DNA from: Terriglobia bacterium
GTDB lineage: Bacteria > Acidobacteriota > Terriglobia > Terriglobales > Acidobacteriaceae
Reading direction: 5' to 3'
Assembly: GCA_020072645.1 (NCBI GenBank)
Contig: JAIQGK010000003.1
Span: 124,001-188,000, forward strand
DNA length: 64,000 bases
Positions 6,033 to 27,607 of the stretch are shown one piece after another (the stretch's first letter is position 1; each line of letters starts with the position of its first letter). Both the position numbers and the translations under genes were made by a program. The notes under the pieces are model-generated. The model saw only the letters and a program-made list of their open reading frames with translations. It was not told the origin of the DNA and ran no database searches.

Positions 6033-6035
6033 GGC

Positions 6036-7022: not shown

Positions 7023-7574
7023 ATGACGCCCACTCTTCAAACCCCGCGCCTGATCCTGCGTCCGCTGGAACTGGCTGACGCCACGCAGGTGCAGGTGCTG
7101 TTCCCAAATTGGGAGATTGTTCGCTATCTAAGAAAAATCGTGCCTTGGCCTTATCCGCCCGATGGCGCTCACACCTATTATCGCGAGGCTGTCCTGCCTG
7201 CTGTCGCGCGGGGCGACGAATGGGCCTGGACTCTTCGGCTGAAATCCATTCCTGACCAACTGATCGGCGCAATTAGCCTGTTCCGGAGTGAAACCGATAA
7301 CCGCGGCTTTTGGCTGGCACTTCCGTGGCATAAACAAGGATTGATGACCGAGGCCTGTGACGCAGTGACCGATTATTGGTTTGAAGTGCTCAAATTTCCG
7401 GTGTTGCGCGTTCCCAAGGCCATTGCCAATACCGGATCACGCCGTATATCGGAAAAACAAGGCATGCGCGTGATTGCCAGAGAAGACCGCGATTACGTCT
7501 CCGGCCGTTTGCCTTCAGAGATTTGGGAGATCACGGCCCAAGAATGGAGTCAGCGCAAAAAAATGTCATTATAG
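7023..7574 (+). CDS. GNAT acetyltransferase, RimJ/RimL-like
   Basis: A 183-residue protein that starts at ATG 7023 with the family opening TPRLILRPLELADA. The pattern of RimJ/RimL-type N-acetyltransferases (acetyl-CoA-dependent transfer to an amine) is visible: a central GAISLF strand, the GFWLALPWHKQGLMTEA region that would hold the acetyl-CoA loop, and the closing NTGSRRISEKQGMRVI segment. The substrate cannot be predicted. A longer start at 6954 adds an Arg-rich stretch that does not fit the family. Confidence 0.85.
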   Translation: MTPTLQTPRLILRPLELADATQVQVLFPNWEIVRYLRKIVPWPYPPDGAHTYYREAVLPAVARGDEWAWTLRLKSIPDQLIGAISLFRSETDNRGFWLALPWHKQGLMTEACDAVTDYWFEVLKFPVLRVPKAIANTGSRRISEKQGMRVIAREDRDYVSGRLPSEIWEITAQEWSQRKKMSL

Positions 7575-7815
7575 GGCGTCATTTTCGGCCACCTCAGTCC
7601 GCAACTCCCCTTCGGAAGTCATTGCCAAGCCAAGAACCATCTTGAGATGGACCATACCCATCCTGCCCTGTCCAATACCCTGACCCAATAAGTATTTGAC
7701 TCCGGTGCAGAATAATGTTCCACTCCCTTGCGAGGATTTTAGCTCTATTTCTCAGCGATGAATGACTGACCATTCATTTTGTTCATGTCAACACTTCGCG
7801 CCAAGGAGACCCCCA

Positions 7816-10800
7816 ATGAAGTCCAGAAACTTCATTTTCGTCGTGCTTGTATTTGCTCTTTTAATGACGCCAACGCTCTTCTGCCAGGTGGATTATTCCA
7901 CCGCAACTTTGCGTGGAACCGTGATGGATCAGGCTGGCGCCGTGGTCGCCGGGGCCACAATCACGGCCACCAATACAAGCACCGGCATCTCCAAGGTGGT
8001 CAAGACCGGGTCTGACGGCATGTATCGCTTGTCGGCCTTGCAGCCCGGCCATTATCAGGTCACCACCGTCGCTACGGGCTTTTCCAAGGAAGTCTTCAAA
8101 GCCCTGGAGCTTACCGTGGGCCAGAGCGCGACCTATGACGTTCATTTAAAGGTCGGCGTGGCCAGTGAAGTGGTGGAGGTCACGGGAGAGAACATCCCGC
8201 TGATCCAGACTGAGCAGTCGCAGCAGGCCAACACCATCAATTCGCTCCAGGTGCAGGAACTGCCCAACCTGAACCGCAATTTTACCAATGACGTTTACAC
8301 GCTTCCCGGCGTGAGTAACTCAGATTCCACGCGCGCGCAGAACCCCGGCTTTACCGGATACCTGACGACGGGTTTCTCCATAGGCGGCAGCAACGGCCGT
8401 AACAATCTTTCCACCATTGATGGCGGCGAAAATGAATATGGAACGGGCCAGTACCGCGTCACCAACCTGCCGGTGGATGCCATTCAGGAATATCAGGTAA
8501 ACCGCAATGCCTTCGCCGCCGAGTTCGGCTTTACCGACGGCAGCGCGATCAACATTGTGACCAAGAGCGGCGGCCAGAAGTGGCACGGTGACGCTTTCGG
8601 CTATTTCCGCGATCAGCACACTGAAGCCACAAATTTCTTCAACGGATTGGAAGGCTTCCCCAAGGCATTCAGCCAGAATGTTTACATGGGCGGATCGCTG
8701 GGCGGCCCGGTGGTAAAAGATAAGTTGTTCCTCTTTACCGCGTATGAATTTCAGCGGCTGGATACGCCGTTTTTCAATAGCATTCTCAATTCGTCAGAAG
8801 CGCAGGGAATCAGCGCTCCGGGGCTGGGAACGAACTGCGCCGCGCAGTTCGCGTCCTTATCGCCTGATCAGTTGTGTTATATCAATGCGCTCAAAGCTTC
8901 CGGCGATCCGTTTCTGGTAGGTTTTGCCAACGGAATCACTCCCGGGCTCACGCCAACGAACGATCCCAATCTCAACACCATCCTCAATCGCGACAATGGC
9001 GTTTTCAACGCCCCAGATCGTTTGCACAATGTAATCATGCGTTTTGACTACACAAAGAGTGAGCGCGACACCTTCACGCTGCGCGCAGGTTATGTGCATA
9101 ACAATTTCCATTCGGCAATCGCCGGCATCACAAATTCCACGCCCGACGGCAGCGGTCTTTTCGTCCGCGACTTCAGCATTCTCGGCACGTGGACACGGAC
9201 GATCAATCCCAACCTGCTCAATCAGATGTTGATCCAGGTGGTGCCCCGCAACCGCTCAGAAGCGTTACCAAACGCCGACAATGGCATCAACTTCAGCCTG
9301 GGCAATCTTGGAGCGCCCGGTCTCGGCGGCACTTCAACTTTTGGCGAGCCTTCATTGATCCCCTACAAAGCGCACCAGCAGCGCTATCAGTTTGAAGACG
9401 ATATTACCTGGAACAAGGGAAACCACACGTTTAAGTTTGGTGCATCCTACCGCCCGGCAAATTACACAGTGCAAGACAATCTCTGGTTCAACAACGAATT
9501 TGATTTCAAAGATGGGCTTCTCGGGCTGATTGCGCTCGCGCCGGCTGCAGTGCAGGCGCATCTGATCGGCTTCAATAATAATTTTCATCTAGGTACGCCG
9601 GGCTGCGGCCAGAGCGCGCAGAATCCGTTCTGCCTGGGTGCCGCTTCCACCAACCTGAGCGCTGCGCAGTCCTTTGCTTTCGGTCTTCCTGTGGACGTTG
9701 TGGCTGGATTCAATAATCCCATCTGGCATGGCTGGGGACACTATTTTGGCAGCTACGTTCAGGATAGCTGGAAGATGTCGCAGCGGCTGACGGTCAATGC
9801 CGGTGTGCGTTTTGATGTTGATGGTGAACCACCGCCTCTGGGCGCCAACTTCTACGCCTCGCCCAGGCTGGGCTTCGCCTGGGATCCATTTGGCAGCCAC
9901 AAGACCATCGTCCGCGCCGGAGCCGGCATTTATTATGCGCCGGTTGACGTGCTGATTCCGTCCTACGGTTCATTGCTGGATGGCAGCGGCCGTTACATCA
10001 ATGAAGTCCTGCAAATTCTGAGCCAAACTGATCCAAGAGTCGCCGAACTCTGGGGACTGGGTCTGGCAACCGGCAAGCTTCCATTTGGTCATCTCTCTCC
10101 AGCGGATTTCGCCGCGGTAGGTATCCCCACCAACACGCCGGGCGCTTCCGTCGGATACAGCGTGGCTCCCAACTACAAGAACCCTTATAGCTTCCAGGCC
10201 AGCGCGGGCATCGCCCAGCAGCTTGGCAAGGATTACTCTCTGGAACTGGGCTACAACATGTACCACGCGGTCCACCTCCAAATGCCGGTAGAGACTGCAT
10301 ACCAGCGAATTCCGGCAGGCGGATGCCCAGCGGCCGTGTTGGCCGTCTTCCCCACATGTACTGATGCGACCGGTGGACCGCTTTATGCGCCAACGGGCAG
10401 CCAGTTCCAGCACACCACGTATGCCTCGAACGGCAGCTCGATCTACCACGGCCTCACCGCCTCACTGACAAAACGGTTTACCCATGGCGTCCAGTTCCAG
10501 GCCAATTACACCTGGAGCAAAACGATTGATGACACCATTGATTTTGCCAGCTTCCAGAACTGGTTCCGGCCAGACAACCTGGCCTCTTTCCGGGCTGTCT
10601 CGGTTTTCGATATTCCCCACATCTTCACCGCGAACGCGGTGTACGTGACGCCGTTTAAGCCGGGACAGGGAGCGCTCTCCGCGATCCTGGGTGACATCAC
10701 CATCTCGCCCATCATTACTTTGCGCAGTGGATTGCCATTCTCTGTCCGCATTCCCAACAGCACCAATAAGATCAACGGTCAGACGCTCGACAGCAACTAC

Positions 10801-11166
10801 GCCATACCGTTCCTGTCCTCGCGCGATGACAACCGGGGCGCGCCGTTTTACACCTGGGACATGAACTTCCAGAAAGCAATCTATATCAATCGTGAGCACA
10901 ACGTGCATTTGAATCTGATCGCGCAGGCGGTCAACATCCTGAATCACATCAATTTCAACCATGTGAATGATGCGTTTGATATCAACGGCATCCCCGCAAA
11001 CGGCATCGTGCAGACGGCAAGAGGCCCCTTGAACCTGATCACAGGACCGTTCACTGGTCTGAAGGGTCTGAAGCCAACTAGCGCCAGCCAGCTCACTGAT
11101 CCATTGTTCTTCTCGCAGGCAGACGTTCCACGCCAGGTGCAATTCGGCCTACGGCTTGCTTTTTAG
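7816..11166 (+). CDS. Oar-like TonB-dependent outer-membrane receptor
   Basis: An 1116-residue protein opening with a signal peptide (FIFVVLVFALLMTPTLFCQ). It continues with a carboxypeptidase-regulatory-like beta-sandwich (ATLRGTVMDQAGAVVAGATI), a plug domain and a long beta-barrel ending in Phe (QFGLRLAF), the usual outer-membrane assembly signal. AAGGAG seven bases before ATG 7816 sets the start. This architecture is the greatly expanded Oar-type receptor class of Acidobacteriota. The substrate is unknown. It stands alone and ends at a strong terminator. Confidence 0.9.
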   Translation: MKSRNFIFVVLVFALLMTPTLFCQVDYSTATLRGTVMDQAGAVVAGATITATNTSTGISKVVKTGSDGMYRLSALQPGHYQVTTVATGFSKEVFKALELTVGQSATYDVHLKVGVASEVVEVTGENIPLIQTEQSQQANTINSLQVQELPNLNRNFTNDVYTLPGVSNSDSTRAQNPGFTGYLTTGFSIGGSNGRNNLSTIDGGENEYGTGQYRVTNLPVDAIQEYQVNRNAFAAEFGFTDGSAINIVTKSGGQKWHGDAFGYFRDQHTEATNFFNGLEGFPKAFSQNVYMGGSLGGPVVKDKLFLFTAYEFQRLDTPFFNSILNSSEAQGISAPGLGTNCAAQFASLSPDQLCYINALKASGDPFLVGFANGITPGLTPTNDPNLNTILNRDNGVFNAPDRLHNVIMRFDYTKSERDTFTLRAGYVHNNFHSAIAGITNSTPDGSGLFVRDFSILGTWTRTINPNLLNQMLIQVVPRNRSEALPNADNGINFSLGNLGAPGLGGTSTFGEPSLIPYKAHQQRYQFEDDITWNKGNHTFKFGASYRPANYTVQDNLWFNNEFDFKDGLLGLIALAPAAVQAHLIGFNNNFHLGTPGCGQSAQNPFCLGAASTNLSAAQSFAFGLPVDVVAGFNNPIWHGWGHYFGSYVQDSWKMSQRLTVNAGVRFDVDGEPPPLGANFYASPRLGFAWDPFGSHKTIVRAGAGIYYAPVDVLIPSYGSLLDGSGRYINEVLQILSQTDPRVAELWGLGLATGKLPFGHLSPADFAAVGIPTNTPGASVGYSVAPNYKNPYSFQASAGIAQQLGKDYSLELGYNMYHAVHLQMPVETAYQRIPAGGCPAAVLAVFPTCTDATGGPLYAPTGSQFQHTTYASNGSSIYHGLTASLTKRFTHGVQFQANYTWSKTIDDTIDFASFQNWFRPDNLASFRAVSVFDIPHIFTANAVYVTPFKPGQGALSAILGDITISPIITLRSGLPFSVRIPNSTNKINGQTLDSNYAIPFLSSRDDNRGAPFYTWDMNFQKAIYINREHNVHLNLIAQAVNILNHINFNHVNDAFDINGIPANGIVQTARGPLNLITGPFTGLKGLKPTSASQLTDPLFFSQADVPRQVQFGLRLAF

Positions 11167-11189
11167 GAAGTCGAGAAAGTTAGAAAACG

Positions 11190-11218
11190 GCGAGGGCGAT
11201 CATGCCCTCGCTTTTTTT
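11190..11218 (+). terminator. Rho-independent terminator of TonB receptor
   Basis: An 8-bp perfect stem GCGAGGGC/GCCCTCGC with a 6-nt loop is followed by seven T, directly after the receptor stop codon. Confidence 0.9.
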
Positions 11219-11312
11219 CTCAGACGGCCAAAGAAGAGGCCATCCTCATGGATTCAGGCGTGCCAAACATGACAATGAAATATTTGAATTAAAAGAACGT
11301 CTGGACGAGGAT

Positions 11313-11501
11313 ATGCATTTAAAACCAGATCCCGTTGCTGTGGAGTTTCTCAAGCAGTTCGGGTTGGCGTTACTCTTTGTCATTTTTGGTGCAATGTCTT
11401 TCATGAGATATGGCTCTACCTGGTCAAAGCGAAAGCGTTCCTCTAAACACAAGCACAATGACGAGCCTAAAAACAGAGCAAAGGAAACTTCAGAAGATTA
11501 G
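11313..11501 (+). CDS. Small single-pass membrane protein, paralogue B
   Basis: A 62-residue product with one hydrophobic segment (FGLALLFVIFGAMSFM) and a basic tail (KRKRSSKHKHNDEPK). It is a paralogue of the protein at 2631-2825. The ATG at 11313 is preceded by GACGAGG at short spacing. The last eight residues (RAKETSED) lie in the left arm of an intergenic inverted repeat, so the tail may have been altered when the repeat arrived. Conservation of both the hydrophobic and the charged part between copies supports coding. Function unknown. Confidence 0.6.
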   Translation: MHLKPDPVAVEFLKQFGLALLFVIFGAMSFMRYGSTWSKRKRSSKHKHNDEPKNRAKETSED

Positions 11502-16327: not shown

Positions 16328-16553
16328 TTAGGCTCTTTCCCGGGGTCTTGCAGGCATCTTACCATGCATCCCGGTACTCTGATCAAAATGGCGTGAGTGT
16401 CTGGCCTTTTGTCACACACTCCGCATCTAACTGTTTGATGCATGTAGATGGATGTTGACGGATTAGTAATGACAACTCTGCAGCTTACATCTCCATCTCA
16501 CATTTACACCTCCGAAATTGGGAGGAGTCCTCGGCAAAAGAGGCGGGGAATTT

Positions 16554-17726
16554 ATGAGGACCGGCTTTAATACTGCACTTGATCCCACACGGCGCAGCTC
16601 AGATGCGCAGGACTTTGAAACCGCCTTGCGGCGGAAAATCGTCGGCCAGGACCCGGCCGTCGAAAAAGTGGTGGAAATTTACCAGATGTTTCTCGCGGGT
16701 TTGAACGCTCCCGGGCGTCCCGTGGGAAACCTTCTCTTTCTTGGGCCCACTGGCTCAGGCAAGACGCGCGTGGTGGAAGCCGTTGCGGAATCGCTCTTCG
16801 GCGATCCCCGGGCAATCATCAAGATTGATTGCGCTGAATTCCAGCACAGCCATGAAATCGCCAAGCTGATCGGCTCGCCGCCCGGCTACCTGGGACACCG
16901 CGAGACGCACCCGCTGCTCACGCAGGAGGCGCTCAACCAGTGGCATACGGAAAAGCTCAAGCTCACGCTGCTGCTGTTCGATGAAATCGAAAAAGCCAGT
17001 GACGCGCTGTGGCAGCTCCTGCTCGGCATACTGGATAAAGCCACGCTAACGCTGGGCGACAATCGTCGCGTCGATCTTTCCCAGTGCCTGATCGTGATGA
17101 CCTCAAACCTGGGCGCGCATGAAATGGACGAATTGATGACCGGTGGCCTTGGCTTTGGTAATACCAAGCGGGCCAACCACATGGATGCCGCGCTGGACGA
17201 CAAAATCACTCGCACAGCGCAAGACGCGGCCCGGCGCAAGTTCTCGCCGGAGTTCATGAACCGCATAGACAAAGTGGTGGTGTTCAAGACCCTTAAGCCG
17301 GAACATCTTGAGCAGATCCTGGAAATTGAACTGGGAATGGTGCAACAGCGCATCCTGCAGGCCACCGGCAACAGCCAATTTGTGTTTTCCTGCACCGCGC
17401 CGGTTAAGGGCTTCCTGTTACAGGAAGGAACCGATCCCAAGTATGGCGCGCGGCACCTGAAGCGAGCGATCGAAAAGAATGTGGTCTTCCCGCTGGCAAA
17501 CCTGGTCGCTACCGGCCAGATCAAACTGGGCGACTTCATCCGTATTGATCGCAAGGAAACGCAGATGACCTTTACCAAGGAAGCGGAAGGCGCATTGGTG
17601 CCGGTTCTCCTGGAAAAATATGGAGAACTGAATCCCGGATCGCCATTGGCAGCTAAGGCAGGACGGGGTAGCGGCAAGTCTCCGCGAGACTTTGGCGGGA
17701 TCGCGCCATTGTTGGACCACAAGTAG
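16554..17726 (+). CDS. ClpB/ClpA-like single-AAA ATPase
   Basis: A 390-residue protein resembling only the second AAA module of Clp/Hsp100 unfoldases plus the small C-terminal domain. It has KIVGQDPAVEKV, Walker A GPTGSGKT at residues 64-71, Walker B LLLFDEIEKA near 140, a pore-like SPPGYLGH motif, sensor region VMTSNLGA, FSPEFMNRID with the arginine finger, and DPKYGARHLKRAIEK. It lacks the N-domain, the first AAA module and the middle domain, so it is not a full ClpB. It also lacks the zinc finger of ClpX. The client is unknown. The start at 16554 follows GGCGGGG. Confidence 0.85.
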   Translation: MRTGFNTALDPTRRSSDAQDFETALRRKIVGQDPAVEKVVEIYQMFLAGLNAPGRPVGNLLFLGPTGSGKTRVVEAVAESLFGDPRAIIKIDCAEFQHSHEIAKLIGSPPGYLGHRETHPLLTQEALNQWHTEKLKLTLLLFDEIEKASDALWQLLLGILDKATLTLGDNRRVDLSQCLIVMTSNLGAHEMDELMTGGLGFGNTKRANHMDAALDDKITRTAQDAARRKFSPEFMNRIDKVVVFKTLKPEHLEQILEIELGMVQQRILQATGNSQFVFSCTAPVKGFLLQEGTDPKYGARHLKRAIEKNVVFPLANLVATGQIKLGDFIRIDRKETQMTFTKEAEGALVPVLLEKYGELNPGSPLAAKAGRGSGKSPRDFGGIAPLLDHK

Positions 17727-17731
17727 CAAGT

Positions 17732-17876
17732 CAGCACTCAGCAGTCAAAGCTGTACCGCAACGGACGCAAAGAGCGCAAAGGAAATTCAGAGAATGAATT
17801 TCCTTTTTTCTTTGCGTCCTTCGTGGCCTTTGCGGTAAAGAAATTTTGGCTGAATGCTGTCGGCTGACTGCTGCGC
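17732..17876. repeat. Intergenic inverted repeat, family 1 (copy 2, full)
   Basis: Outer arms CAGCACTCAGCAGTC and GGCTGACTGCTG enclose inner arms ACCGCAACGGACGCAAAG and CTTTGCGTCC..CCTTTGCGGT, with a central GGAAATTC/GAATTTCC stem. It fills the gap between the convergent AAA ATPase and ATP-grasp genes and would form a long hairpin in either transcript. Confidence 0.8.
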
Positions 17877-17880
17877 TCCA

Positions 17881-18981
17881 TCACGGCTCCACAGACTTGA
17901 ACGATGCGTCCGCCGAGACGGTGGCGATGTTCAAAGCTTTCTCTTGCTGGTGGGATCGCTGATATTCCGCGATCGATGGAAACAGCCCCTGGCGCTCCTC
18001 CAGCGTCTGTTTGGAGCCTTGCGGAGCGGTAAGAAATGCGCAAAATTTCTCCAGCAGTTGCGCGTGCGGGCAAAAGTCATCGAGCCACAGGAACTGACCC
18101 TGCTCGTTGATCTCCAGGAACCACCACTCTCCGTTGCGGTCCACGGCAAGGTCCAGCGAGCCCGTGCAGACGCCGGCCGCGGCGGCAAACCTGAGTATGC
18201 CGCTCTCCACTGGGGCGGGCGTTGCGATGCGCTCCACGGCAACGTTTCTCAGGGCTGCGTCATGGCGCCAGTCGAGAGAATTGGCGGGGGTGCGCACAGC
18301 GAACGAATAAACACGCTCTCCCATCAGCACCGCTCGGACGTCGAATTGCTTCTTCACCTTCTCCTGGTAGATGGCGGGAGAAAACGTGAAGACCTCGTCA
18401 TCTGCGGGCAAGTCCGCGCGATTCAGGGAGAAAGTTTCTGTCACCGTCACATCGGTCGATCCGTGCCGCTGCCATACGTGGGTAGCAAATGCTTTGCAGA
18501 TAGCATTGTCGGGATTTTGATCAAAAAACTCTCTCACGGCTGCAGGCGAATTTGACATGAGCGTTGCCGGAATCCTGAGGCCGGAAGAGCCAGCCAACTG
18601 CAGTTGCACGGCCTTGTTCCGCACCAAGCATGAGGCTGAATAGCGGTTGATGCACCGGACAGGCAGCGTTTCAAGCAGGTAAACGATCGACTCAAAAAAA
18701 TCGGAACAAGATAGTGCTGCGGATTCTGCGCCGGCTTTTAATGCCGAAGGATTCTGCGCCGTCGGCGGGTCCGGCTGGCGAAGCCAGAGAACATCATCGC
18801 GTTCCAGCCGATGTGTTCCCAGTCTGATGCAGGGCTGTTCGTCCACCAGCAGGGAAGCCTGGTCCTGCTCGGCTGGGGAAACGCCGCTCCAGCATGCAGT
18901 CTGGTACCCGACCTGTTCCAGGGCCCAGCAAACAGGGGCCGCATGGTCATCTTTCGGGTGCGCCAGCACGATGATTTTCAT
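17881..18981 (-). CDS. ATP-grasp peptide ligase, graspetide synthetase-like
   Basis: A 366-residue ATP-grasp enzyme of the kind that makes microviridin-type (graspetide) peptides by activating Asp/Glu side chains and joining them to Thr/Ser or Lys. After a pre-ATP-grasp domain (residues 1-100) comes the family block INRYSASCLVRNKAVQLQLA (111-130) with GLRIPATLMSN (134-144). Next are a nucleotide-binding Lys region (ICKAF, K163), YQEKVKKQFDVRAVLMGERV (205-224), DWRH (237-240), and metal-binding positions in SLDLAV (D277) and FLEINEQGQFLWLDD (E290, N292). A roughly 45-residue tail is extra. It is last in a same-strand series after seven precursor genes, 103 bp from the nearest. No second ATP-grasp gene, acetyltransferase, protease or exporter is adjacent. 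Product and linkage are inferred. Confidence 0.85.
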   Translation of the reverse strand: MKIIVLAHPKDDHAAPVCWALEQVGYQTACWSGVSPAEQDQASLLVDEQPCIRLGTHRLERDDVLWLRQPDPPTAQNPSALKAGAESAALSCSDFFESIVYLLETLPVRCINRYSASCLVRNKAVQLQLAGSSGLRIPATLMSNSPAAVREFFDQNPDNAICKAFATHVWQRHGSTDVTVTETFSLNRADLPADDEVFTFSPAIYQEKVKKQFDVRAVLMGERVYSFAVRTPANSLDWRHDAALRNVAVERIATPAPVESGILRFAAAAGVCTGSLDLAVDRNGEWWFLEINEQGQFLWLDDFCPHAQLLEKFCAFLTAPQGSKQTLEERQGLFPSIAEYQRSHQQEKALNIATVSADASFKSVEP

Positions 18982-19005
18982 GGCATTGTCCCGGACAGAA
19001 GATTG

Positions 19006-19032
19006 GGAGCGCCAGCATGCCGCCGGCGCTCC
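19006..19032 (-). promoter_or_regulatory. Hairpin between precursor genes and ligase gene
   Basis: A perfect 8-bp stem GGAGCGCC/GGCGCTCC with an 11-nt loop (19014-19024) lies in the 103-bp gap between the last precursor and the ATP-grasp gene. No T-run follows on the minus strand, so it is not a standard terminator. It could slow polymerase or mark an RNA processing point that keeps ligase levels below precursor levels. That role is inferred. Confidence 0.45.
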
Positions 19033-19084
19033 GCTGGTTATGTTTCAGGGCAGTGTTTCGCTTTTTACAAGCGGTTGCGGCATT

Positions 19085-19237
19085 CTATTGGTCCGGGCTT
19101 TCATCCGTACCGCTGGGGGAGCCGGTCAACATGAGAGTGAGTGGCGTAATCTTTCCTCCTGTTACCTGTACGATTTCTTGCGCACTCAATCGGCGTGCGC
19201 CCCGACGGGTGAGCACTCGATTGTTTTCATTCGACAT
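19085..19237 (-). CDS. Graspetide-type precursor peptide 1
   Basis: A 50-residue precursor. The leader MSNENNRVLTRRGARRLSAQ continues EIVQVTGG, with a Gly-Gly at residues 27-28. The core then has hydroxyl residues T31, T34 and T38 and acidic residues D45 and D49, the positions shared by all seven paralogues. It ends ESPDQ, and E46 is an additional acid. AAGGAG lies about seven bases before ATG 19237, and a longer frame upstream has no such site. It is the copy nearest the ATP-grasp gene, with which it is probably co-transcribed. Confidence 0.85.
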   Translation of the reverse strand: MSNENNRVLTRRGARRLSAQEIVQVTGGKITPLTLMLTGSPSGTDESPDQ

Positions 19238-19286
19238 GAATTTCTCCTTTCCGCTTTCAGGTTGTTTTTCCATCACCTGGAGAAGA

Positions 19287-19451
19287 CTAAGTATCCGAGC
19301 GCAAGTCATGGCCCTGGCCATTGCCCGCACCGGTGAGGATCGCGCTCAGAAGCGTGATGTGGTCGCCGCCCGCGACCCTTTCAAGCTCCTTCCCGTTCAA
19401 TTGGCGAGCGCCTTTCCGGGTGAGCACCCGAGTATTGTTTTTGCTCGACAT
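19287..19451 (-). CDS. Graspetide-type precursor peptide 2
   Basis: A 54-residue paralogue with the leader block RVLTRKGARQLNGKELERVAGG and Gly-Gly at residues 28-29. The core places T33, S36 and T40 before D49 and D53. The T-to-D spacing is two residues longer than in the other copies, with a Gly/Asn-rich stretch GAGNGQGH between. It ends DLRSDT. AAGGAG lies seven to eight bases before ATG 19451. The 161-bp gap to the next copy upstream is the longest in the array. Confidence 0.85.
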   Translation of the reverse strand: MSSKNNTRVLTRKGARQLNGKELERVAGGDHITLLSAILTGAGNGQGHDLRSDT

Positions 19452-19612
19452 AAATTTCTCCTTTTCTACCGCGTAAGGACGGAAGCGCCGGTCCCCGCCC
19501 CAATCCACGCAAAACCGGCGTGGCTTTGGGAACCCCGGTGCCTGCGGCCCGCGCTTCCGCAGTTTGCACTTCCTTGGTTTCAAAAAAAACGGCTTTAAAA
19601 AACGGCCTGCAG

Positions 19613-19765
19613 CTATTGGTCCAGGATATCGTCTGGATTGCTAACCGGGCCGGTTGCAAGGGAACTGGCAAGCGTGTTCGCTGCCGCTGTGATCTCTTCC
19701 ATTTCTTTCTCGGTGAGTGACCGGGCTCCCGTGCGAGTGAGCACCCGGTTATTATCGTTCGACAT
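19613..19765 (-). CDS. Graspetide-type precursor peptide 3
   Basis: A 50-residue paralogue read directly from the DNA: leader MSNDNNRVLTRTGARSLTEK, then EMEEITAAA in place of a Gly-Gly. The core has T31, S34 and T38 as possible donors and D45, D46 and D49 as possible acceptors. It ends DDILDQ. A GGAG site lies just before ATG 19765. Only 32 bp separate it from the next copy upstream. Confidence 0.85.
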   Translation of the reverse strand: MSNDNNRVLTRTGARSLTEKEMEEITAAANTLASSLATGPVSNPDDILDQ

Positions 19766-19797
19766 TGGTTTCTCCTTTCAAAATGAGTTGCAGTCGG

Positions 19798-19950
19798 TTA
19801 GCTATCCAGCTTCTGGTCTGAATTGCCGTTCGTGTTGGTCACAATAACGCTGAGGAGCGTGGCGCCTGCTCCGATGGTCTGTTCTACTTCATCCTGGGAA
19901 AGTTGGCGAGCGCCCCTTCGAGTGAGCACCCGATTGTTATTGTTCGGCAT
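19798..19950 (-). CDS. Graspetide-type precursor peptide 4
   Basis: A 50-residue paralogue with leader MPNNNNRVLTRRGARQLSQD, then EVEQTIGAGA. The core has T31, S34 and T38, then D45 and D49, ending SDQKLDS. Asn and Gly fill the T-to-D spacer (NTNGN). AAAGGAG lies about six bases before ATG 19950. A start at 20013 would run through the upstream gap and has no ribosome binding site. Confidence 0.85.
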   Translation of the reverse strand: MPNNNNRVLTRRGARQLSQDEVEQTIGAGATLLSVIVTNTNGNSDQKLDS

Positions 19951-20016
19951 GTGATCTCCTTTCCGCCTTCTCCCGGGCTGGGAAAATAAAATTGTCGAAA
20001 CGCACAGTGACAAAAG

Positions 20017-20175
20017 CTATGTATCAACGCTGTGGTCGGGATTGCTGGCCGTGCCGGTTACCAGCGTGGTCAAACGTGTTGGAATCACGCCGCCTGAAAT
20101 CTCGTCCAGTTCCTCTTGCGAGAGTTTGCGGGCGCCCATGCGGGTGAGTACCCGGTTGTTGTCTTGGTTCGGCAT
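20017..20175 (-). CDS. Graspetide-type precursor peptide 5
   Basis: A 52-residue paralogue with leader MPNQDNNRVLTRMGARKLSQ, then EELDEISGG with Gly-Gly at residues 28-29. The core has T33, T36, T37 and T40, then D47 and D51, ending PDHSVDT. It has the most Thr of all the copies. AAAGGAG lies seven to eight bases before ATG 20175. It is too short to be called by most gene finders. Confidence 0.85.
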   Translation of the reverse strand: MPNQDNNRVLTRMGARKLSQEELDEISGGVIPTRLTTLVTGTASNPDHSVDT

Positions 20176-20247
20176 ATATTTCTCCTTTCTGTTCCTGATC
20201 TTTTCACCCGATACTCTGGGCCTAGCGGACCAGATGCAGCGAAGCCG

Positions 20248-20403
20248 CTATTCGTCGGTGGTGAAGTCCGAGCCGCTGGGACTGTTAGTGCGGAGCACGC
20301 TTAGGACTGAGGGCAGGACCGCGCCTGTTACCCCGTCTATCTCATTCTGGGTCAGTGGACGTGCCCCCTTGCGGATAAGCACGCGGTTATTGTTGTTTGA
20401 CAT
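20248..20403 (-). CDS. Graspetide-type precursor peptide 6
   Basis: A 51-residue paralogue. The leader is MSNNNNRVLIRKGARPLTQN, with Ile for the usual Thr at residue 10, then EIDGVTGA. The core has S32, S35 and T39, then D46 and D50, ending SDFTTDE; the last residue is acidic, unlike in the other copies. AAAAGGAG lies about eight bases before ATG 20403. An 83-bp gap leads to the first copy of the array. Confidence 0.85.
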   Translation of the reverse strand: MSNNNNRVLIRKGARPLTQNEIDGVTGAVLPSVLSVLRTNSPSGSDFTTDE

Positions 20404-20486
20404 GAGCTTTCTCCTTTTCTAGTAAACTGCCTTCTCCAAACCGGCCAGGCACAACTAGTCGAAAGCATTGGAGTCCGCTGCGGGAG

Positions 20487-20648
20487 CTATGAGTCCATGT
20501 CTGAATCAGTGCTGAGCATCGTGCCTGTCCCGGTCAAGCTTGCGCGGGTAAAAGGGCCACCGGCCGCGGTGATCTGTTGCAGTTCGTCGGATGTAAGTTG
20601 ACGGGCGCCTCTGCGGGTAAGCACCCTGTTCTCGTGGTTGTTCGACAT
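20487..20648 (-). CDS. Graspetide-type precursor peptide 7 (first in array)
   Basis: A 53-residue paralogue and the first gene of the array in the direction of transcription. The leader is MSNNHENRVLTRRGARQLTS, then DELQQITAAGG. The core has T34, S37 and T41, then D48, D50 and D52, ending DSDMDS. Extra Thr at 39 and 43 give more possible donors. AAGGAG lies about seven bases before ATG 20648. The promoter for the whole set should lie upstream, in 20650-20760. Confidence 0.85.
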   Translation of the reverse strand: MSNNHENRVLTRRGARQLTSDELQQITAAGGPFTRASLTGTGTMLSTDSDMDS

Positions 20649-20726
20649 AAATTTCTCCTTTCCAGTTTTCAGATTTCCTTCTCCAAACACACTGGAAATC
20701 TACTGTCGAAAACAAAACATTAAAAA

Positions 20727-20755
20727 AGACTATCGAACGATGGGCTGCGGTTCAA
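20727..20755 (-). promoter_or_regulatory. Possible promoter of the precursor operon
   Basis: On the minus strand, TTGAAC (20755-20750) and TAGTCT (20732-20727) are 17 bp apart, about 80 bp before the first precursor start. The match to a housekeeping promoter is partial, so this is a weak call. Confidence 0.25.
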
Positions 20756-20767
20756 CGCCGGTTTTTT

Positions 20768-21050
20768 GTGCAGTCGAGCCACTTAGCACTCAGCCGTCAG
20801 CATTCAGCAGTGAGTCCCGAAACGGAACACCTTTCCATCGCCCAAGATGTAATGGACACAAAGAAATGAACTTACCGCAGAGGAAGAAAAATAGTTTGCG
20901 GTGTGTTAAGAAGCCCTAAATTTATCGAGATTTCATCTGCGTAGAGTGAAAGAAAATCTAGCCGCGAATCAACGCGAATCCTATCTTTCTAATCTTATTC
21001 GTGTGCATTCGCGAAATTCGCGGCTGCTTCTTTTGATCAGCGTGTATCTC
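20768..21050. repeat. Intergenic repeats between precursor array and mglA-like gene
   Basis: A degenerate family 1 element starts at about 20768 (CTTAGCACTCAGCCGTCAGC..TTACCGCAGAGG). A second, different element at about 20958-21025 has AGCCGCGAAT paired with ATTCGCGGCT. No gene is visible in this stretch. Confidence 0.55.
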
Positions 21051-21097
21051 CGGAAATCTGCGGCGAAGGGCTTGTGGTTGAGAGCGCGGGCTCGGTG

Positions 21098-21682
21098 TCA
21101 GCCCTTCTTCAACTCAATCAACACCAATCGGGCGACTTCCTTGAGAGTCTCAAAAACGCCTTTTCCCTGGAAGGCGACGGCTTCAAAGGTAGGCTCGTCT
21201 TTCTTGGCCAGTTCGCGTTTCAGTTCTTCCACAGCCAGGGCGCTGGGCAGGTCTCGTTTATTGAATTGCAGGACGTAAGGGATCTTCTTGAAGTCGTAAC
21301 CATGCTCTTTCAGGTTCTCTTGCAGGTTTTCCAGCGCTTCAATGTTGGCGTCCATGCGCTCTTCCTGTGAATCGGCCACAAAAACCACGCCATCTACGCC
21401 GCGCAGGATCAGCTTTCTGCTGGCATCGTAAAAAACCTGGCCGGGAACGGTATAGAGGTGGAATCGGGTGCGGAAGCCGCGGACAGTCCCCAGGTCAAGG
21501 GGCAGAAAGTCGAAGAAGAGCGTCCGGTCCGTTTCCGTGGCCAGGGAGATCATCTTGCTCTTCTGTTTATCGACCGTCTTATCGAAAATATGCTGCAGAT
21601 TCGTGGTCTTACCGCCCAGACCGGCGCCGTAATAGACGATCTTGCAGTTAATTTCGCGTGCGGCAAAGTTAATAAAGCTCAA
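21098..21682 (-). CDS. mglA: MglA-like small GTPase
   Basis: A 194-residue Ras-like GTPase. In other bacteria MglA sets cell polarity and controls type IV pili or gliding motors. I chose the TTG at 21682 because it follows AGGAG closely and gives the family's usual beginning [18 protein letters not shown]; an upstream start at 21709 would add nine unrelated residues. The P-loop GAGLGGKTT is at residues 19-27, TVPGQVFY replaces the usual switch II, and LQFNKRDLP is the base-specificity motif. The usual partner MglB (roadblock protein) is not adjacent. pilT lies about 17 kb away in this window. Confidence 0.88.
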
Positions 21683-21853: not shown

Positions 21854-23149
21854 CTATGGCCGTGAGCTCTGTTGCGCCTGCGGTGGCAACGGGAAATAAC
21901 CTTGTTTGGCAAAAACGCTCAGGTTCGGGCGCAGCACGCGGACGTCAATGGTGCGGAAAGCGCTCGATTTTGTCGCCTGGGTCGTATATCCCAGCGTGTA
22001 CTGATTGCGTGCCGCGTCCGCGATTTTGGAATAGGCCTGTTCTATGCCCTGGCGGTCGAATTCCGCGATCATGTCGCCCCCGGTATCAGCAGCATAACGG
22101 GGTAGTATGTTTCCGGTCCCAAAGCCCGGAATACGTACGCGGTTGGCTTTGTCGTAAATCGGGATTGCGGCGGTATCCACGCCCACGCCGTACACACTGA
22201 TGCCATTGGCCAGCAGGACTCTCCTCACCTCATCGTATCCGGCAGTGCTGCCCAGCTCGCGCCCGTCGCTAACGACAAAGATAATGCGCCGGCGAGTCTT
22301 ATCGCGTTTGCTCAGGTCCTGGGCCGCTCTTAAAATCGCGTCATTCAGCACATAAAATTCGCGCGGTGGTGTTTGCACGTCGCCCGCCCTGCCGCCGTTG
22401 GCATTGGGATCGCTCACCGGATGGCCATTGATGCTCGGTCCGCCACCGAAAGGCCCGCCCGTAATGGGTGGACCGCCCTGCCGTCCGGGACGCTTGATGC
22501 GATTCACGCTGGCAGTGGAGACACTGGAAGCGCCGGAAAAGCCCGAAACCTGTTGCACGGTGTGGCCGTAGCGATAGAGCGCGACCTCATCCACTTCACT
22601 GAAAGCGCCAATAAGCGCCGGCAGCGATTCATTGACTTTTTTCATGGTTACGGAGGGCAAATCCGTGGCCACAACTACGGCCGCTGAAAGCGGGAATGCG
22701 TCCGCGGTAAAAAACTTAAGCTGTTGCAGCACCCCGTCTTCATAAACCCTGAAGTCATTGGAAGTAAGCCCTGGGACCAGGCTGCCGGAACGGTTTTTAA
22801 CCCGTACGGGAATCTGCACAAAGTTTACAGCTACGCTCATCTTGTACAGGTCGTCACGGCCACTTGCCAATTGACCCTGGCCCGGCGCGGGACGCTCAGC
22901 TGGCGTTGGAGTCGGCGCGGCTTCGGGCTGCTCAGGAGGATGCGTGTTGATCGGCGCCGGAGGGGCATTTTCCGGGAATTGCCCCGATTGCTGGGTCTTG
23001 GGCTGGGGCGCGTCTGGGACGTTCTGAGGAGACTGTTGCGCCTCCTTTGGCTTGGGGCCATCGGGAAGGGTCTGTTGACTTAGAACAGGCAAAGTTGCCA
23101 CCGCTAGGGCGCAAATCAGCCCTTTCTTCCCAAGGGTCAACCTAAGCAT
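21854..23149 (-). CDS. Acidobacterial VWFA-related secreted protein 1
   Basis: A 431-residue protein. A signal peptide (GLICALAVATLPVLSQQ) is followed by a roughly 80-residue Pro/Gln-rich linker and a von Willebrand factor A-like domain of the acidobacterial type (VNFVQIPVRVKNRSGSLVPGLTSNDFRVYEDGVLQ, VVVATDLPSV, IIFVVSDGRELGS), ending QYTLGYTT..LRPNLSVFAKQGYF. The metal-site motif is degenerate (ATDLPSV for DxSxS). A Gly/Pro-rich insert splits the domain. AGGAGGAG lies before ATG 23149. It is the most diverged of four copies here. Function unknown. Confidence 0.85.
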   Translation of the reverse strand: MLRLTLGKKGLICALAVATLPVLSQQTLPDGPKPKEAQQSPQNVPDAPQPKTQQSGQFPENAPPAPINTHPPEQPEAAPTPTPAERPAPGQGQLASGRDDLYKMSVAVNFVQIPVRVKNRSGSLVPGLTSNDFRVYEDGVLQQLKFFTADAFPLSAAVVVATDLPSVTMKKVNESLPALIGAFSEVDEVALYRYGHTVQQVSGFSGASSVSTASVNRIKRPGRQGGPPITGGPFGGGPSINGHPVSDPNANGGRAGDVQTPPREFYVLNDAILRAAQDLSKRDKTRRRIIFVVSDGRELGSTAGYDEVRRVLLANGISVYGVGVDTAAIPIYDKANRVRIPGFGTGNILPRYAADTGGDMIAEFDRQGIEQAYSKIADAARNQYTLGYTTQATKSSAFRTIDVRVLRPNLSVFAKQGYFPLPPQAQQSSRP

Positions 23150-23323: not shown

Positions 23324-24373
23324 ATGCGGACTTTATTTCTCGTCTTCGCGATCGCTTTTATTCCCCTGTCGATTTTTGCTCAGCAGGAAGCTGCTCCCCC
23401 TTCCGTGCAGCAAAATACCGGTAAGAACCAGGTCCAAAATCAAGATAAGGATCAGGTTCCCGACAAAGACCAGGGCAAGATTCCGGTGTTCCGCAAGAAC
23501 GTGACCGTGGTCAACGTTTTGTTTACGGTAAAAGACAAACACGGCGCTTTGATCCCTAACCTCAGCAAGGACCATTTTGACCTGTTCGAAGACGGCAAGC
23601 CGCAGACAATCAAATACTTTTCTAATGAGAGCGACCTGCCAATCACGCTGGGGCTGCTGATTGACAGCAGCAAGAGCATGGAACGAACGTTGCCGGAGGA
23701 AAAGGTTGTGGCCGCCGGATTTCTGCAAAAAGTGCTCACCAGCAAAGATCTGGCTTTTGTGATCAGCTTTGACATCACCGTGGACCTGCTCCAGGACCTT
23801 ACCGGCGACATGCATTCTTTGCGCAGGGGGCTGGATAAGGCACGTATCAATACCAATACGGCAGGCATGGCGCCGATGGGAAATCCCGGCCCTGTGCCTA
23901 CGGCAAGCGGCAGCAATAAAGGCACACTGCTGTTTGACGCTGTGTATTTGGCCGCCGATGAGGTCTTGAGCCGTCAGGTCGGACGCAAAGCCATGATCAT
24001 CCTTACTGATGGCGACGACGTGGGCAGCAAGTTGCGGCTAAAGGATTCAATTGAAGCCGCCCAAAGGGCGGACACTGTGGCTTACGTGCTGCTGATCACG
24101 GATCCTATGTATCCTTCGAATTACGGCGATATGAGCAAACTCACGGAGCAGACTGGCGGCCGCCTCATCTCGGTGAGCCGTCCGGACAAGCTGGACAAAG
24201 CGTTTGCAGAAATTGCCGCTGAACTGCGCAGCCAGTACCTGCTCGGCTTTAGTTCCACGAATCCAGTGAATGACGGTAAATTCCGCCGGCTGGAGGTCAA
24301 ATCGAAAGACGGATACAAGATCCAGGCGCGTAAAGGTTACTATCCACCGAATGACGCGGCGGCAAGCCGGTAA
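23324..24373 (+). CDS. Acidobacterial VWFA-related secreted protein 2
   Basis: A 349-residue protein. A signal peptide (FLVFAIAFIPLSIFAQQ) leads into a linker rich in Gln/Asp/Lys (QDKDQVPDKDQGK), then the VWFA-like domain with TVKDKHGALIPNLSKDHFDLFEDGK, a good metal-site motif LLIDSSKSM, IILTDGDDVGS and the closing SQYLLGFSS..KIQARKGYYPP. It is read divergently from copy 1 across a 174-bp gap that should hold both promoters. Probably exported; function unknown. Confidence 0.88.
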   Translation: MRTLFLVFAIAFIPLSIFAQQEAAPPSVQQNTGKNQVQNQDKDQVPDKDQGKIPVFRKNVTVVNVLFTVKDKHGALIPNLSKDHFDLFEDGKPQTIKYFSNESDLPITLGLLIDSSKSMERTLPEEKVVAAGFLQKVLTSKDLAFVISFDITVDLLQDLTGDMHSLRRGLDKARINTNTAGMAPMGNPGPVPTASGSNKGTLLFDAVYLAADEVLSRQVGRKAMIILTDGDDVGSKLRLKDSIEAAQRADTVAYVLLITDPMYPSNYGDMSKLTEQTGGRLISVSRPDKLDKAFAEIAAELRSQYLLGFSSTNPVNDGKFRRLEVKSKDGYKIQARKGYYPPNDAAASR

Positions 24374-24425: not shown

Positions 24426-25418
24426 TTATTGCTTAGGGACGTAATATCCTTTTTTCGCCCGAACTTTATATTTCTTGCTGTCCGTCATGATCTGGATTGG
24501 CCGGAACTGGCCATTGGCCACAAACTGATCTGGGCGATAAGAGATCATGTACTGGCTGCGCAACTCTTCCTGGATATCAGAAAAAGCTGCAACCACATCG
24601 TCTAGCTTTACAGGAAAAAAAGCGCGGCCTCCCGTGGCATCTGCCAGCTTCCTCAAATCGTCATCGCCTTTTGTGTGTCTTTCCACCAGGGACGTGCTGA
24701 TCGTATAGACGATAACTTCCGCGCGTTGGGCCATGTCAATCGCTTCATCGCGATACACGCGGCTCAGGTTGTCCTCGCCGTCTGAGATCAAAATAATGGC
24801 CCGGCGCACCGCTCCAGTGGATGGCTCTTTCATGAGCTTGTCGCGGCAGGCGAAATAGATTGAGTCCCACATCGCTGTTCCACCGCCAGCCTTGATGACC
24901 TTTACGCCGGTGCGGAGCTTATCAACGTCCCCGGTAAAATCCTGCGTTACGTCCCAGGTTTCATCAAAAGCCAGCACAAAAGCCTTATCAGCCTTGGGGC
25001 GGACAATTTCGTATAGAAATTCCGAGGCGGCGTCCTTTTCAAACTGGAAGCGGTCGCGAATCGAGTTGCTGGCGTCAATCAGCAGGCCCACGTGCAAAGG
25101 CAAGTCCGTTTGCGCGGCAAAGTTCATCATCTGTCGCGGCGGCAGCTTGTTGTCCAGGACCCTGAATTGGTTCTGCTTCAGGTCGCGCACGAATTTGCCG
25201 TCCTTATCCACGACTGTGAAAACCACGTTGACTTCGTCGGTTCGCACGCGGACGGTGGGGATTTGCCCATTCTTAGAGTCGGTTTTTGTATCGTCCGGCT
25301 GCTGCTGGCTGCCAGCCGATGGCGACGGAGTGGGGGCAGGAATCGGTTGCTGCGCCATGGCTAAAGTAGAGGCAATACACATCGCAATGAAAACAAACAG
25401 ATACTTTTTGAGAGTCAT
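24426..25418 (-). CDS. Acidobacterial VWFA-related secreted protein 3
   Basis: A 330-residue protein with a signal peptide (LFVFIAMCIASTLAMAQQ), a short Pro/Ser/Thr linker and a VWFA-like domain: VVDKDGKFVRDLKQNQFRVLDNK, metal-site motif LLIDASNSIRDR, IILISDGEDNLSR, SQYMISYRPDQF and KVRAKKGYYVPKQ. It is very close in sequence to copy 4 just upstream on the same strand, so the two arose by tandem duplication. The 130-bp gap between them holds copy 4's terminator, so copy 3 probably has its own promoter. Confidence 0.88.
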   Translation of the reverse strand: MTLKKYLFVFIAMCIASTLAMAQQPIPAPTPSPSAGSQQQPDDTKTDSKNGQIPTVRVRTDEVNVVFTVVDKDGKFVRDLKQNQFRVLDNKLPPRQMMNFAAQTDLPLHVGLLIDASNSIRDRFQFEKDAASEFLYEIVRPKADKAFVLAFDETWDVTQDFTGDVDKLRTGVKVIKAGGGTAMWDSIYFACRDKLMKEPSTGAVRRAIILISDGEDNLSRVYRDEAIDMAQRAEVIVYTISTSLVERHTKGDDDLRKLADATGGRAFFPVKLDDVVAAFSDIQEELRSQYMISYRPDQFVANGQFRPIQIMTDSKKYKVRAKKGYYVPKQ

Positions 25419-25548: not shown

Positions 25549-26562
25549 CTACTGGCGAGGTACGTAATATCCTTTTTTTGCCCGGACCCTGAATTTCTTG
25601 TTTTCGGCGGCAATCTGTATGGGACGGAACTGCCCATTAGCCTCAAATCCTTCAGGCTTATAGAACACGGAATACTGGCTGCGCAGCTCTTCATGAATAT
25701 CGTGGAACGCGTTAGCGACGTCTTGCAGCTTGAAAGGGAAGAAGGCCTGGCCGCCGGTGGTTTCCGCCAGCATTTTCAGGCTGCGGTCGCCTTCATCAGG
25801 GTTATTGCTCAGGTTAGTGCTGATGGTGTAAACGATCACGCCCGCGCGCTGCGCCATCTCAATGGCTTCCTGCCTAAGAACGCGGCTCTGGTTGTCATCG
25901 CCGTCTGAAACAAGAATGATCGCACGGCGAACGGGACCTGTTTCTTTTTCCTTCATCAGCTTGTCACGGCAGGCATAAAAAACGGCGTCCCAAAGTGCGG
26001 TGCCACCGCCCGGACGGATCACTTTTACGCCCTTCGTCAACTTGTCCAGATCGCCGGTGAAATCCTGTGTCAGGTCCCAGACTTCGTCAAACGCAAGCAC
26101 AAACGCCTTGTCGGTCTTGGGACGAATGATCTGGTGCAGAAACTCAATCGCCGCATCCTGCTCAAAGAGAAAGCGGTCGCGAATAGAATTGCTGGCATCG
26201 ATCAACAGCCCTACGCGCAACGGCAGATCCGTCTCGGCAGAAAAGTTCGTGATCTGCCGGGGCGGTTTGTTGTTATCCAGAATCTTGAACTGATTTTCTT
26301 TCAGGTCCTTGATGAACTTGTTGTGCTTGTCCGTGACCGTAAAGATCACGTTCACTTCGTCGGAACGGCTGTGGAACGTCTGCACTGGCAGCGTATCGTC
26401 CACGGCTGCACTCGCCGATCCAGGAGCCACGGCATTTGCGGTGGCCGATGGGGCCTGCCCGGCTGCCGGGGACTGTGCCGCTGGCGGCGTAGTTTGCGCC
26501 AATGCAGAGCAGCAAACCAAAGTGAACGCGAACATCAGCGCAAGGGTCTTTTTTTGATGCAT
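25549..26562 (-). CDS. Acidobacterial VWFA-related secreted protein 4
   Basis: A 337-residue protein from ATG 26562 (a longer start at 26634 would put 24 residues before the signal peptide). Signal peptide LALMFAFTLVCCSALAQ, an Ala/Pro-rich linker, then the VWFA-like domain with TVTDKHNKFIKDLKENQFKIL, LLIDASNSIRDR, IILVSDGDDNQSR, SQYSVFYKPEGF and RVRAKKGYYVPRQ. It is the tandem paralogue of copy 3. Function unknown. Confidence 0.88.
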   Translation of the reverse strand: MHQKKTLALMFAFTLVCCSALAQTTPPAAQSPAAGQAPSATANAVAPGSASAAVDDTLPVQTFHSRSDEVNVIFTVTDKHNKFIKDLKENQFKILDNNKPPRQITNFSAETDLPLRVGLLIDASNSIRDRFLFEQDAAIEFLHQIIRPKTDKAFVLAFDEVWDLTQDFTGDLDKLTKGVKVIRPGGGTALWDAVFYACRDKLMKEKETGPVRRAIILVSDGDDNQSRVLRQEAIEMAQRAGVIVYTISTNLSNNPDEGDRSLKMLAETTGGQAFFPFKLQDVANAFHDIHEELRSQYSVFYKPEGFEANGQFRPIQIAAENKKFRVRAKKGYYVPRQ

Positions 26563-26605
26563 ATCAGGGCTTCTCTCGCACATTATAGTCTTCAACAAAC
26601 AATCC

Positions 26606-27607
26606 TCAATCCCCGATTCTCCGAAGAAAATCACTTAGCTCAGCCGGTAACGGCTGCTGGAACGAAAGCGGCCTCTCACTTATTGGATGCCGGAATTGTA
26701 TCGCGAAAGCATGCAGAAAGTTCCTTTTCAGGGATGCAACCTCCGGCGCTGTACCTCCGTAACTCACAGACCTGGTCACGCGCGCCGGCGCGCCATATAA
26801 AGTGTCACCCACAACAGGGTGGCCAATCGACGAGAGGTGTACCCGGATCTGGTGCGTTCGTCCCGTTTCGATCTTTACTTCCAGCAGGGCAAATTTGCCG
26901 TAAGCGCCTTCAATCTGTTGAGTTACCTGCCAGTGCGTGACGGCCGCACGGCCGGGCCTGCTCTCACTTGTGCGGCGGGTAGTCATGCGCGCGCGACGAA
27001 CCATATCGCGGCTGATGGCGGCGGTAATGGTCCCTTTTGTCATTTTGGGCCAGCCGTGCACCAGGGCGATGTACGTTTTCTTGACCTCGCGATGCGTGAA
27101 TTGGTCTGCCAGCTTCCGGTGAGCCAGATCAGATTTCGCCACCAGCACCAGCCCGCTGGTTTCTTTGTCCAGCCGATGAACGATTCCCGGCCGTAACTCG
27201 CCGCCGATCTCTGAAAGCTGGTTAAACCGATGAAGCAGCGCGTTGACCATGGTGCCGCGATTACCCGCCTCGCCCTTGCCTGAACCGGCATGCACGCTCA
27301 TGCCCGCCGCCTTGTTGACCACCGCGATACTCTCGTCTTCGTAAATCACGTCGAGCGGAATGTCTTCTGCAAATGCCTTCAACGGCGGCAGCTCGACTTC
27401 GCCAGTAATAACGATTTCTTCTCCGCCGCGCAGCTTCATGGAAGGCTTGGGTGTCTTTCCGTTAATGAGAATTTTGTTTTGTTCGATGAGCTGCTGAATG
27501 CGTACACGACTGACTTCGGGAAGCTGGGAGACAAGCCATTGGTCAAGGCGGGAGCCTTTGTCTTCGGGCGGCACAGCCAGCGTTTGGATTGGTGCGAAGT
27601 CGGGCAC
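26606..27607 (-). CDS. rluD: RluD-family pseudouridine synthase
   Basis: About 333 residues. An N-terminal S4 RNA-binding domain (SRLDQWLVSQLPEVSRVRIQQLIEQNKILING) precedes a RluA/RluD catalytic domain with GIVHRLDKETSGLVLVAK, whose Asp in HRLD is the catalytic residue. It converts uridines in 23S rRNA to pseudouridine; the exact target is inferred. I chose the GTG at 27607 because a TTG at 27643 lies inside an intergenic repeat; neither has a clear ribosome binding site. Confidence 0.9.
   Translation of the reverse strand: MPDFAPIQTLAVPPEDKGSRLDQWLVSQLPEVSRVRIQQLIEQNKILINGKTPKPSMKLRGGEEIVITGEVELPPLKAFAEDIPLDVIYEDESIAVVNKAAGMSVHAGSGKGEAGNRGTMVNALLHRFNQLSEIGGELRPGIVHRLDKETSGLVLVAKSDLAHRKLADQFTHREVKKTYIALVHGWPKMTKGTITAAISRDMVRRARMTTRRTSESRPGRAAVTHWQVTQQIEGAYGKFALLEVKIETGRTHQIRVHLSSIGHPVVGDTLYGAPARVTRSVSYGGTAPEVASLKRNFLHAFAIQFRHPISERPLSFQQPLPAELSDFLRRIGD

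Follow-up and report, generated by a model that had tools for sequence, protein, structure and literature searches.

A candidate graspetide operon in a Terriglobia bacterium pairs seven precursor genes with one ATP-grasp ligase

Introduction

The graspetide class is already known, as are nested stem-loop products and ligases that serve several precursors (PMC8939145, PMC12291112), and surveys describe 24 groups and, subsequently, 19 more (PMC13097080). Here we analyze a candidate graspetide operon of seven small precursor genes followed by one gene for an ATP-grasp ligase. It lies in a stretch of 64,000 nucleotides (hereafter, the window) from a Terriglobia bacterium (Acidobacteriota; contig JAIQGK010000003.1, positions 124,001 to 188,000).

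Several described systems bear on this locus, as far as the cited passages present them. Fuscimiditide (pre-fuscimiditide; ThfA, ThfB), which belongs to the graspimiditides or group 13, has two nested Thr-Asp esters, joining Thr3 to Asp22 and Thr7 to Asp18, and an aspartimide made by its methyltransferase (PMC12291112). Group 13 is reported to be 99% Actinomycetota, with Chloroflexi and, after them, Acidobacteria making up the few other members (PMC13001092). A stem-loop with nested cross-links is likewise described for OEP6-1 and amycolimiditide, with three and four rungs, respectively (PMC12291112). Gra-7 of Legionella pneumophila (group 8) comprises one ATP-grasp enzyme and two precursors, each of which loses three waters when combined with its own ATP-grasp in E. 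coli, the ring positions being given as unmapped (PMC9576775). Precursors of branch 1 of the candidate phyla radiation (CPR), as defined by Makarova et al., have the core TxxxTx(6-10)Dx(1-4)D, and several different precursors per ATP-grasp ligase, as in our operon, are reported for chryseoviridin and for Bacteroides branch 5 loci, which, unlike ours, carry a SPASM enzyme (PMC8939145).

Results

Organization of the operon

The open reading frame (ORF) listing bore out the original prediction that seven small genes in tandem share a strand with one ATP-grasp ligase gene, here the minus strand from position 20648 to 17881 of the window. The small ORFs, of 50-54 codons, span 20648 to 19085 and encode, in operon order, precursors p1 (53 aa, 20487..20648, with a core ending in SLTGTGTMLSTDSDMDS), p2 (51 aa, 20248..20403), p3 (52 aa, 20017..20175), p4 (50 aa, 19798..19950), p5 (50 aa, 19613..19765), p6 (54 aa, 19287..19451) and p7 (50 aa, 19085..19237). 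The last gene of the operon encodes the ligase (366 codons, 18981-17881). Intergenic gaps measure 83, 72, 66, 32, 161, 49 and 103 bp, and both the predicted range of 32-161 bp and the AAGGAG or GGAG sites of the small genes proved right: AAAGGAGA lies a few bases upstream of the ATG in all seven precursor genes. We adopted these ATG starts, the ORF list having given earlier GTG or TTG starts for p1, p4, p6 and p7. Since the ligase gene has no such Shine-Dalgarno site, nor any strong ribosome site upstream of its start, the precursors are probably translated more than the enzyme. As had been claimed, the neighboring ORFs, read by eye, showed no second ligase and no transporter.

Profile, sequence and predicted fold place the ligase with the graspetide type

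The motifs quoted for the ligase (DWRH, FLEINEQGQF) are present in its ORF. Its top NCBIfam families, all scoring below their cut-offs, were TIGR04187 (E 3.2e-42), MvdD (1.9e-34) and MvdC (1.1e-28), with grasp-with-spasm also among them. A sequence search of solved structures returned PruB (9bou), MdnC (5ig9), CdnC (7mgv), MdnB, AMdnB and PsnB; a seventh row, at E 0.53, was taken as chance. An AlphaFold model of the ligase (predicted local distance difference test score 90.4, predicted template modeling score 0.88) was compared with known folds and gave Z scores of 28.0 for MdnC, 27.0 for AMdnB, 26.4 for CdnC, 26.2 for PruB and 25.0 for PsnB, followed by RimK at 22.1. In an alignment of 38 sequences including the window ligase, R216, D237, R239, E290 and N292 are invariant. 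Locus L136 was omitted from one alignment (A4). We conclude that, by profile, sequence and predicted fold, the enzyme is a ligase of the graspetide type, and it thus groups as the original prediction expected.

The precursors share a leader and a two-rung core pattern

All precursors have in common the leader RVLxRxGARxLxxxE, and a model of this leader found p1 to p7 with E values of 3.2e-16, 6.6e-17, 7.0e-18, 3.9e-18, 1.3e-16, 3.1e-14 and 6.3e-18, respectively. An orthologous operon, L025, is found in another genome (G006), where the ligase is 85% identical to that of the window. Across 14 precursors of the two operons, 13 columns do not vary; ten of them belong to the leader (Met1 and the fixed residues of RVLxRxGARxLxxxE) and the other three to the core (one Thr, both Asp of DxxxD). 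The C-terminal pattern [ST]xxxT-x6-DxxxD-x is present in 7/7 window precursors, with a loop of eight rather than six residues in p6, so that the nested stem-loop pattern [ST]xxxT...DxxxD, taken as a pattern only, holds throughout. The longer form [ST]xx[ST]xxxTx6-8DxxxDx occurs in all seven window precursors and in all seven intact L025 ORFs, a truncated eighth L025 ORF not being included in the count. Among 20,000 residue shuffles per core, the full pattern arose in 0 to 0.11% for these 14 precursors. Counting from the first Asp of DxxxD, Ser or Thr stands at -14 in 12/14 and at -11 in 12/14; the exceptions at both positions are p6 and L025:6813, with loops two and one residues longer. The window cores contain no Cys, and only p4 and p7 have Lys in their last 22 residues.

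All seven window peptides, encoded beside a ligase, have a leader and candidate donor and acceptor residues in the core, as precursors of the graspetide class do (Ser/Thr/Lys donors, Asp/Glu acceptors). Neither the microviridin core TxKxPSD nor the plesiocin-type core TTxxxxEE occurs in any of the seven, in agreement with the original prediction. No curated family fits the precursors, and bacteriocin models touching the GG region stay under their cut-offs. With fuscimiditide the window cores share TxxxT...DxxxD and a rung spacing of 4, whereas its loop between the rungs has 10 residues against 6 here, and its nested esters are known where ours are predicted. Near the window operon there is no PCMT-family match that could correspond to its aspartimide-forming methyltransferase, or to the PIMT methyltransferase that marks group 13: of eight such matches in the genome, two share contig C3 with the operon, lying at 222 kb and at 674 kb, and the operon itself is at 142-145 kb. 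The core signature of CPR branch 1 fits 3/7 window precursors as written and 7/7 if the first residue may be Ser.

The ligase and five precursors are under purifying selection

Comparison of the window ligase with that of L025 gave a ratio of nonsynonymous to synonymous substitution rates (dN/dS) of 0.16 (Nei-Gojobori). Five of the seven precursor pairs were compared in the same way, p6 (no clear ortholog) and p7 (ortholog truncated) being left out, and gave dN/dS of 0.26 for p1, 0.11 for p2, 0.26 for p3, 0.17 for p4 and 0.08 for p5. Pooled over these pairs, dN/dS was 0.17 (0.10-0.29) for leaders and 0.21 (0.10-0.41) for cores. Purifying selection therefore acts on the ligase and on the five precursors whose ortholog is intact, and the low ratios within ortholog pairs indicate that single peptides are kept while paralogs differ. 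Precursor copies also come and go, as seen from p6 and p7. Together, the rare shuffle matches, the low dN/dS and the recurrence of the leader at 34 places in the genome demonstrate that the precursor genes are not a product of chance.

Sister ligases and distant precursors in the same genome

The system extends beyond the window, for the same genome has three sister ligases of the close family (54, 51 and 49% identical to the window ligase) and 27 further leader-bearing genes. The 34 places found by the leader model at E <= 1e-3 comprise 14 beside a ligase on contig C2, the seven of the window, three beside a ligase on C19, two beside one on C10, one about 7 kb from the C19 ligase, and seven far from any ligase. 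Two distant ATP-grasp genes (C3:628130 and C12:285433) had no leader by motif scan or leader model and were set aside. Alongside its 14 leader genes and one ligase, the C2 operon (L008, about 4562-11364) carries a C39 peptidase-ABC exporter; its precursors mostly have two-Cys cores that follow TxTxCT...DGD...EC. A 212-aa protein encoded before this exporter had appeared HlyD-like by eye; Pfam found nothing and NCBIfam only one sub-threshold match, and it is left unnamed. On contig C4 of genome G004 (L206:6161-6361), a precursor shares its exact core with one found next to the C19 ligase in the window genome, and no ligase was found on that contig.

No ligase was seen near the seven distant leader genes (L167-L173), which lie on C6, C1, C29, C7, C3 (at 212089 and 121519) and C5. 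Four have the ribosome site AAAGGAG, and the other three AAGGAA, AGAGGA or AAAGGA. Relatives in other species exist for four of the seven; their dN/dS values are rough estimates, the genes being short. The C29 gene is 86% identical in G006 (dN/dS 0.10) and has a looser relative in G001 (C185; 58%, dN/dS 0.55); the C5 gene has a G006 relative identical over 46 aa; C3:121519, about 2.3 kb before the window start, has relatives in G006, G004 and G005 (dN/dS 0.43-0.47), in which its four-Cys core recurs; and C3:212089 has a G001 relative of 58% identity with saturated dS. The C29 core and its ortholog match the two-rung ladder, and the C1 and C3:212089 cores do not match the exact two-rung pattern. 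Eight neighbors of the distant genes were scanned, yielding a redoxin, a ZIP transporter, an amino-acid permease, a HAD hydrolase, elongation factor P (EF-P) and a SnoaL protein, together with one Mrr-type endonuclease domain and one protein with no match; the other neighbors were read by eye.

Distribution of the leader and of the core ladder

The original prediction had proposed a search for the precursor motif beside ATP-grasp genes of other Acidobacteriota. Among 61 genomes (the window's own and 60 relatives), a close-family ligase is present in seven and the leader in eight, including all seven with the ligase; the leader model found nothing at E <= 1e-3 in the remaining 53. In the eighth leader genome (G005, 81% complete), the contig breaks 16 bases after a precursor of a C2-kind operon. 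Within the genus, 6/9 genomes examined have the ligase. In 396 genomes of the phylum the leader was found in at least four (G000, G007, G296 and G402), the scan having scored 17 candidates per genome, so that its counts are lower bounds (at least 17 against 34 for G000). G000, G007 and G296 have a close-family ligase, and the G402 match (E 8.0e-4) was treated as chance, being marginal in a search of 396 genomes. A ligase match was obtained in 19 genomes of the phylum; in 16 of these the matches were all more distant (E 9e-35 to 2e-4), and no leader was found. The leader is thus found almost only in genomes with this ligase. A scan of viral contigs with the ligase protein gave no relative, and the 72 plasmid records that matched it, 37 of them from Streptomyces, were all below 60% identity.

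The wider family was followed in the best 80 of 99 relatives from titled genome records; 11 of the 80 come from Acidobacteriota and the majority of the rest from proteobacteria (Lysobacter, Oxalobacteraceae, Legionella). An upstream leader ORF was found at 37/80 loci with the acidobacterial model and at 67/80 after it had been re-trained on its own hits (fourth pass), and never at 13/80; reversed ORFs gave no matches. Ladder statistics were taken on the last 30 residues of 73 non-acidobacterial leader ORFs, a set that includes near-identical ones (e.g. L105, L118). The two-rung pattern occurred in 47 against 1.9 in shuffles, the three-rung pattern in 24 against 0.0, and an Asp-Asp spacing of 4 was counted 98 times against 19.5. 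Legionella or Legionella-like loci (L102, L097, L078, L088, L135 and others) have three-rung precursors such as TTRHTFRVTGGTGPSADVAYDVSVD beside wider-family ligases, which are 26-30% identical to the window ligase. The leader therefore recurs, diverged, in proteobacterial loci including Legionella, where cores often have three rungs. By analogy, the three waters lost by Gra-7, against two predicted for the window peptides, would fit a three-rung ladder if its core resembles those of the Legionella relatives.

In the ligase tree, the window ligase pairs with L057 (support 100/100) within an acidobacterial clade of 15 rows (97/96). Apart from this pair, members of the clade have different cores where these were seen, so that at least one core switch among close ligases is probable.

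Discussion

We judge it likely that this operon is a graspetide operon making peptides with two nested side-chain esters in a stem-loop, a reading that draws on sequence, the modeled fold and analogy with fuscimiditide. The ATP-grasp ligase would recognize the shared leader, activate core Asp side chains with ATP and join them to Ser/Thr side chains. As the rung spacing equals that of fuscimiditide, an inner ring Thr(-7)-Asp(0) is predicted inside an outer ring Ser/Thr(-11)-Asp(+4), with both donors two residues further upstream in p6 and an expected mass change of -36 Da. Each product would be a small stem-loop, with the loop and flanks varying among the seven peptides, which fits the expectation that one enzyme yields a library of related peptides from conserved leaders and varied cores. 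The leader would probably be removed by cleavage following a small-residue doublet, with export of the peptide by a C39 peptidase-ABC exporter from another locus, for which the one beside the C2 operon is the best candidate; the genome has three C39-peptidase matches, none on the operon contig. These linkages, their order, cleavage, export in trans and the function of the peptides are what we infer.

Several observations weigh against this reading. The ligase scores 144.8 bits against a curated cut-off of 350 for TIGR04187 (GRASP_SAV_5884), and no Pfam family exceeds its cut-off. The window leaders contain neither PFFARFL (0/7) nor the Phhx(1,2)h signature that CPR branch 1 leaders have. The doublet is uneven (GG in p1, p3, p6 and p7; GA in p2 and p4; AA in p5), and no peptidase or exporter was seen within the operon. 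The likely p7 ortholog (L025:7493-7603) loses its frame after the leader, through a true break or an assembly error. Extra donors, such as Ser/Thr at -14, leave several connectivities possible. The ladder is present in 0/31 leader ORFs of the other ten acidobacterial loci, which means that related ligases act on a different pattern, and the ladder of the window cores may not go back to an ancestor shared with the proteobacterial ladders.

A graspetide operon whose rings connect differently (through one ester, through staggered esters, or by way of Ser/Thr at -14 in place of -11) would agree with the several Ser/Thr residues per core, with position -14 being Ser or Thr as often as -11, and with the different core pattern of the sister operons, but the invariant DxxxD and the four-residue donor spacing match the fuscimiditide stem-loop, and the ladder statistics of the relatives point the same way; we regard it as unlikely. 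That the enzyme is instead RimK-like, adding amino acids to peptide ends with no cyclization, is very improbable: although RimK is the next best fold and its profile TIGR00768 matches weakly (25.2 bits against a cut-off of 143.4), graspetide ligases come first by both sequence and fold, and precursors with a leader and a Ser/Thr-Asp core adjoin the gene.

The occurrence of relatives of four distant genes in other species suggests that distant precursors are modified in trans. Among lanthipeptides, the prochlorosins have many precursors with one leader and varied cores, some far from the enzyme, although enzyme and linkage differ from those considered here. We tentatively propose, with rather less than even confidence, a counterpart in which four sister ligases using one leader code would modify 34 precursors of at least two core types, the seven distant ones in trans, giving a natural stem-loop set that varies around fixed rungs. 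There is nearly an even chance, however, that each ligase serves its own operon and that the seven distant genes are leftovers of lost operons or have other duties. Core types do follow the ligase, in that the window ligase and its partner L057 have ladder cores and C2-like ligases have TxTxCT..DGD..EC cores; one L025 precursor is truncated; and selection on some distant genes is moderate (C3:121519, and C29 against its G001 relative). Against this, the distant genes keep purine-rich ribosome sites, and four of them have relatives in other species, with strong constraint between C29 and its G006 ortholog.

Collectively, one ligase with seven precursors, three sister ligases and 27 more peptide genes indicate that a family of ring-locked peptides, belonging to an established chemical class, is probably produced by this soil acidobacterium. 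The graspetide interpretation in the original prediction is supported, with two qualifications: the core pattern has a familiar look, with fuscimiditide spacing, and multi-precursor ligases are already known (PMC8939145). No report of this system was found in the graspetide literature searched, which covered titles, abstracts and selected passages and sections of mainly openly available papers. What looks new within that coverage is the scale (34 leader genes, four close ligases), together with a change of core type under a single leader and distant precursors that are conserved. The locus offers a natural experiment in which one leader code accompanies related ligases that would act on different cores (ladder versus Cys/DGD). 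It further supplies predicted stem-loop scaffolds in which the cross-links stay in place while the loops vary. If the distant precursors are modified, genome mining beside ligases alone undercounts graspetides. The leader family of proteobacteria, including Legionella, is also extended to soil acidobacteria.

Regulatory signals and neighboring genes

No sigma-70 promoter was found in 17700-21100, where 1.1 would be expected by chance, a result that says little for this phylum. The same interval has nine terminator-like sites against 4.5 by chance; the plus-strand ones at 19206, 19417 and 20141 correspond to the precursor leader region seen in reverse. Read by eye, a ClpX-like AAA gene (16518-17726) converges on the ligase gene, its stop about 150 bp away. 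On the other side of the operon, also by eye, four similar genes between 21854 and 26634 resemble VWFA-type secreted proteins, three on the minus strand (21854-23149, 24426-25418 and 25549-26634) and one on the plus strand (23324-24373).

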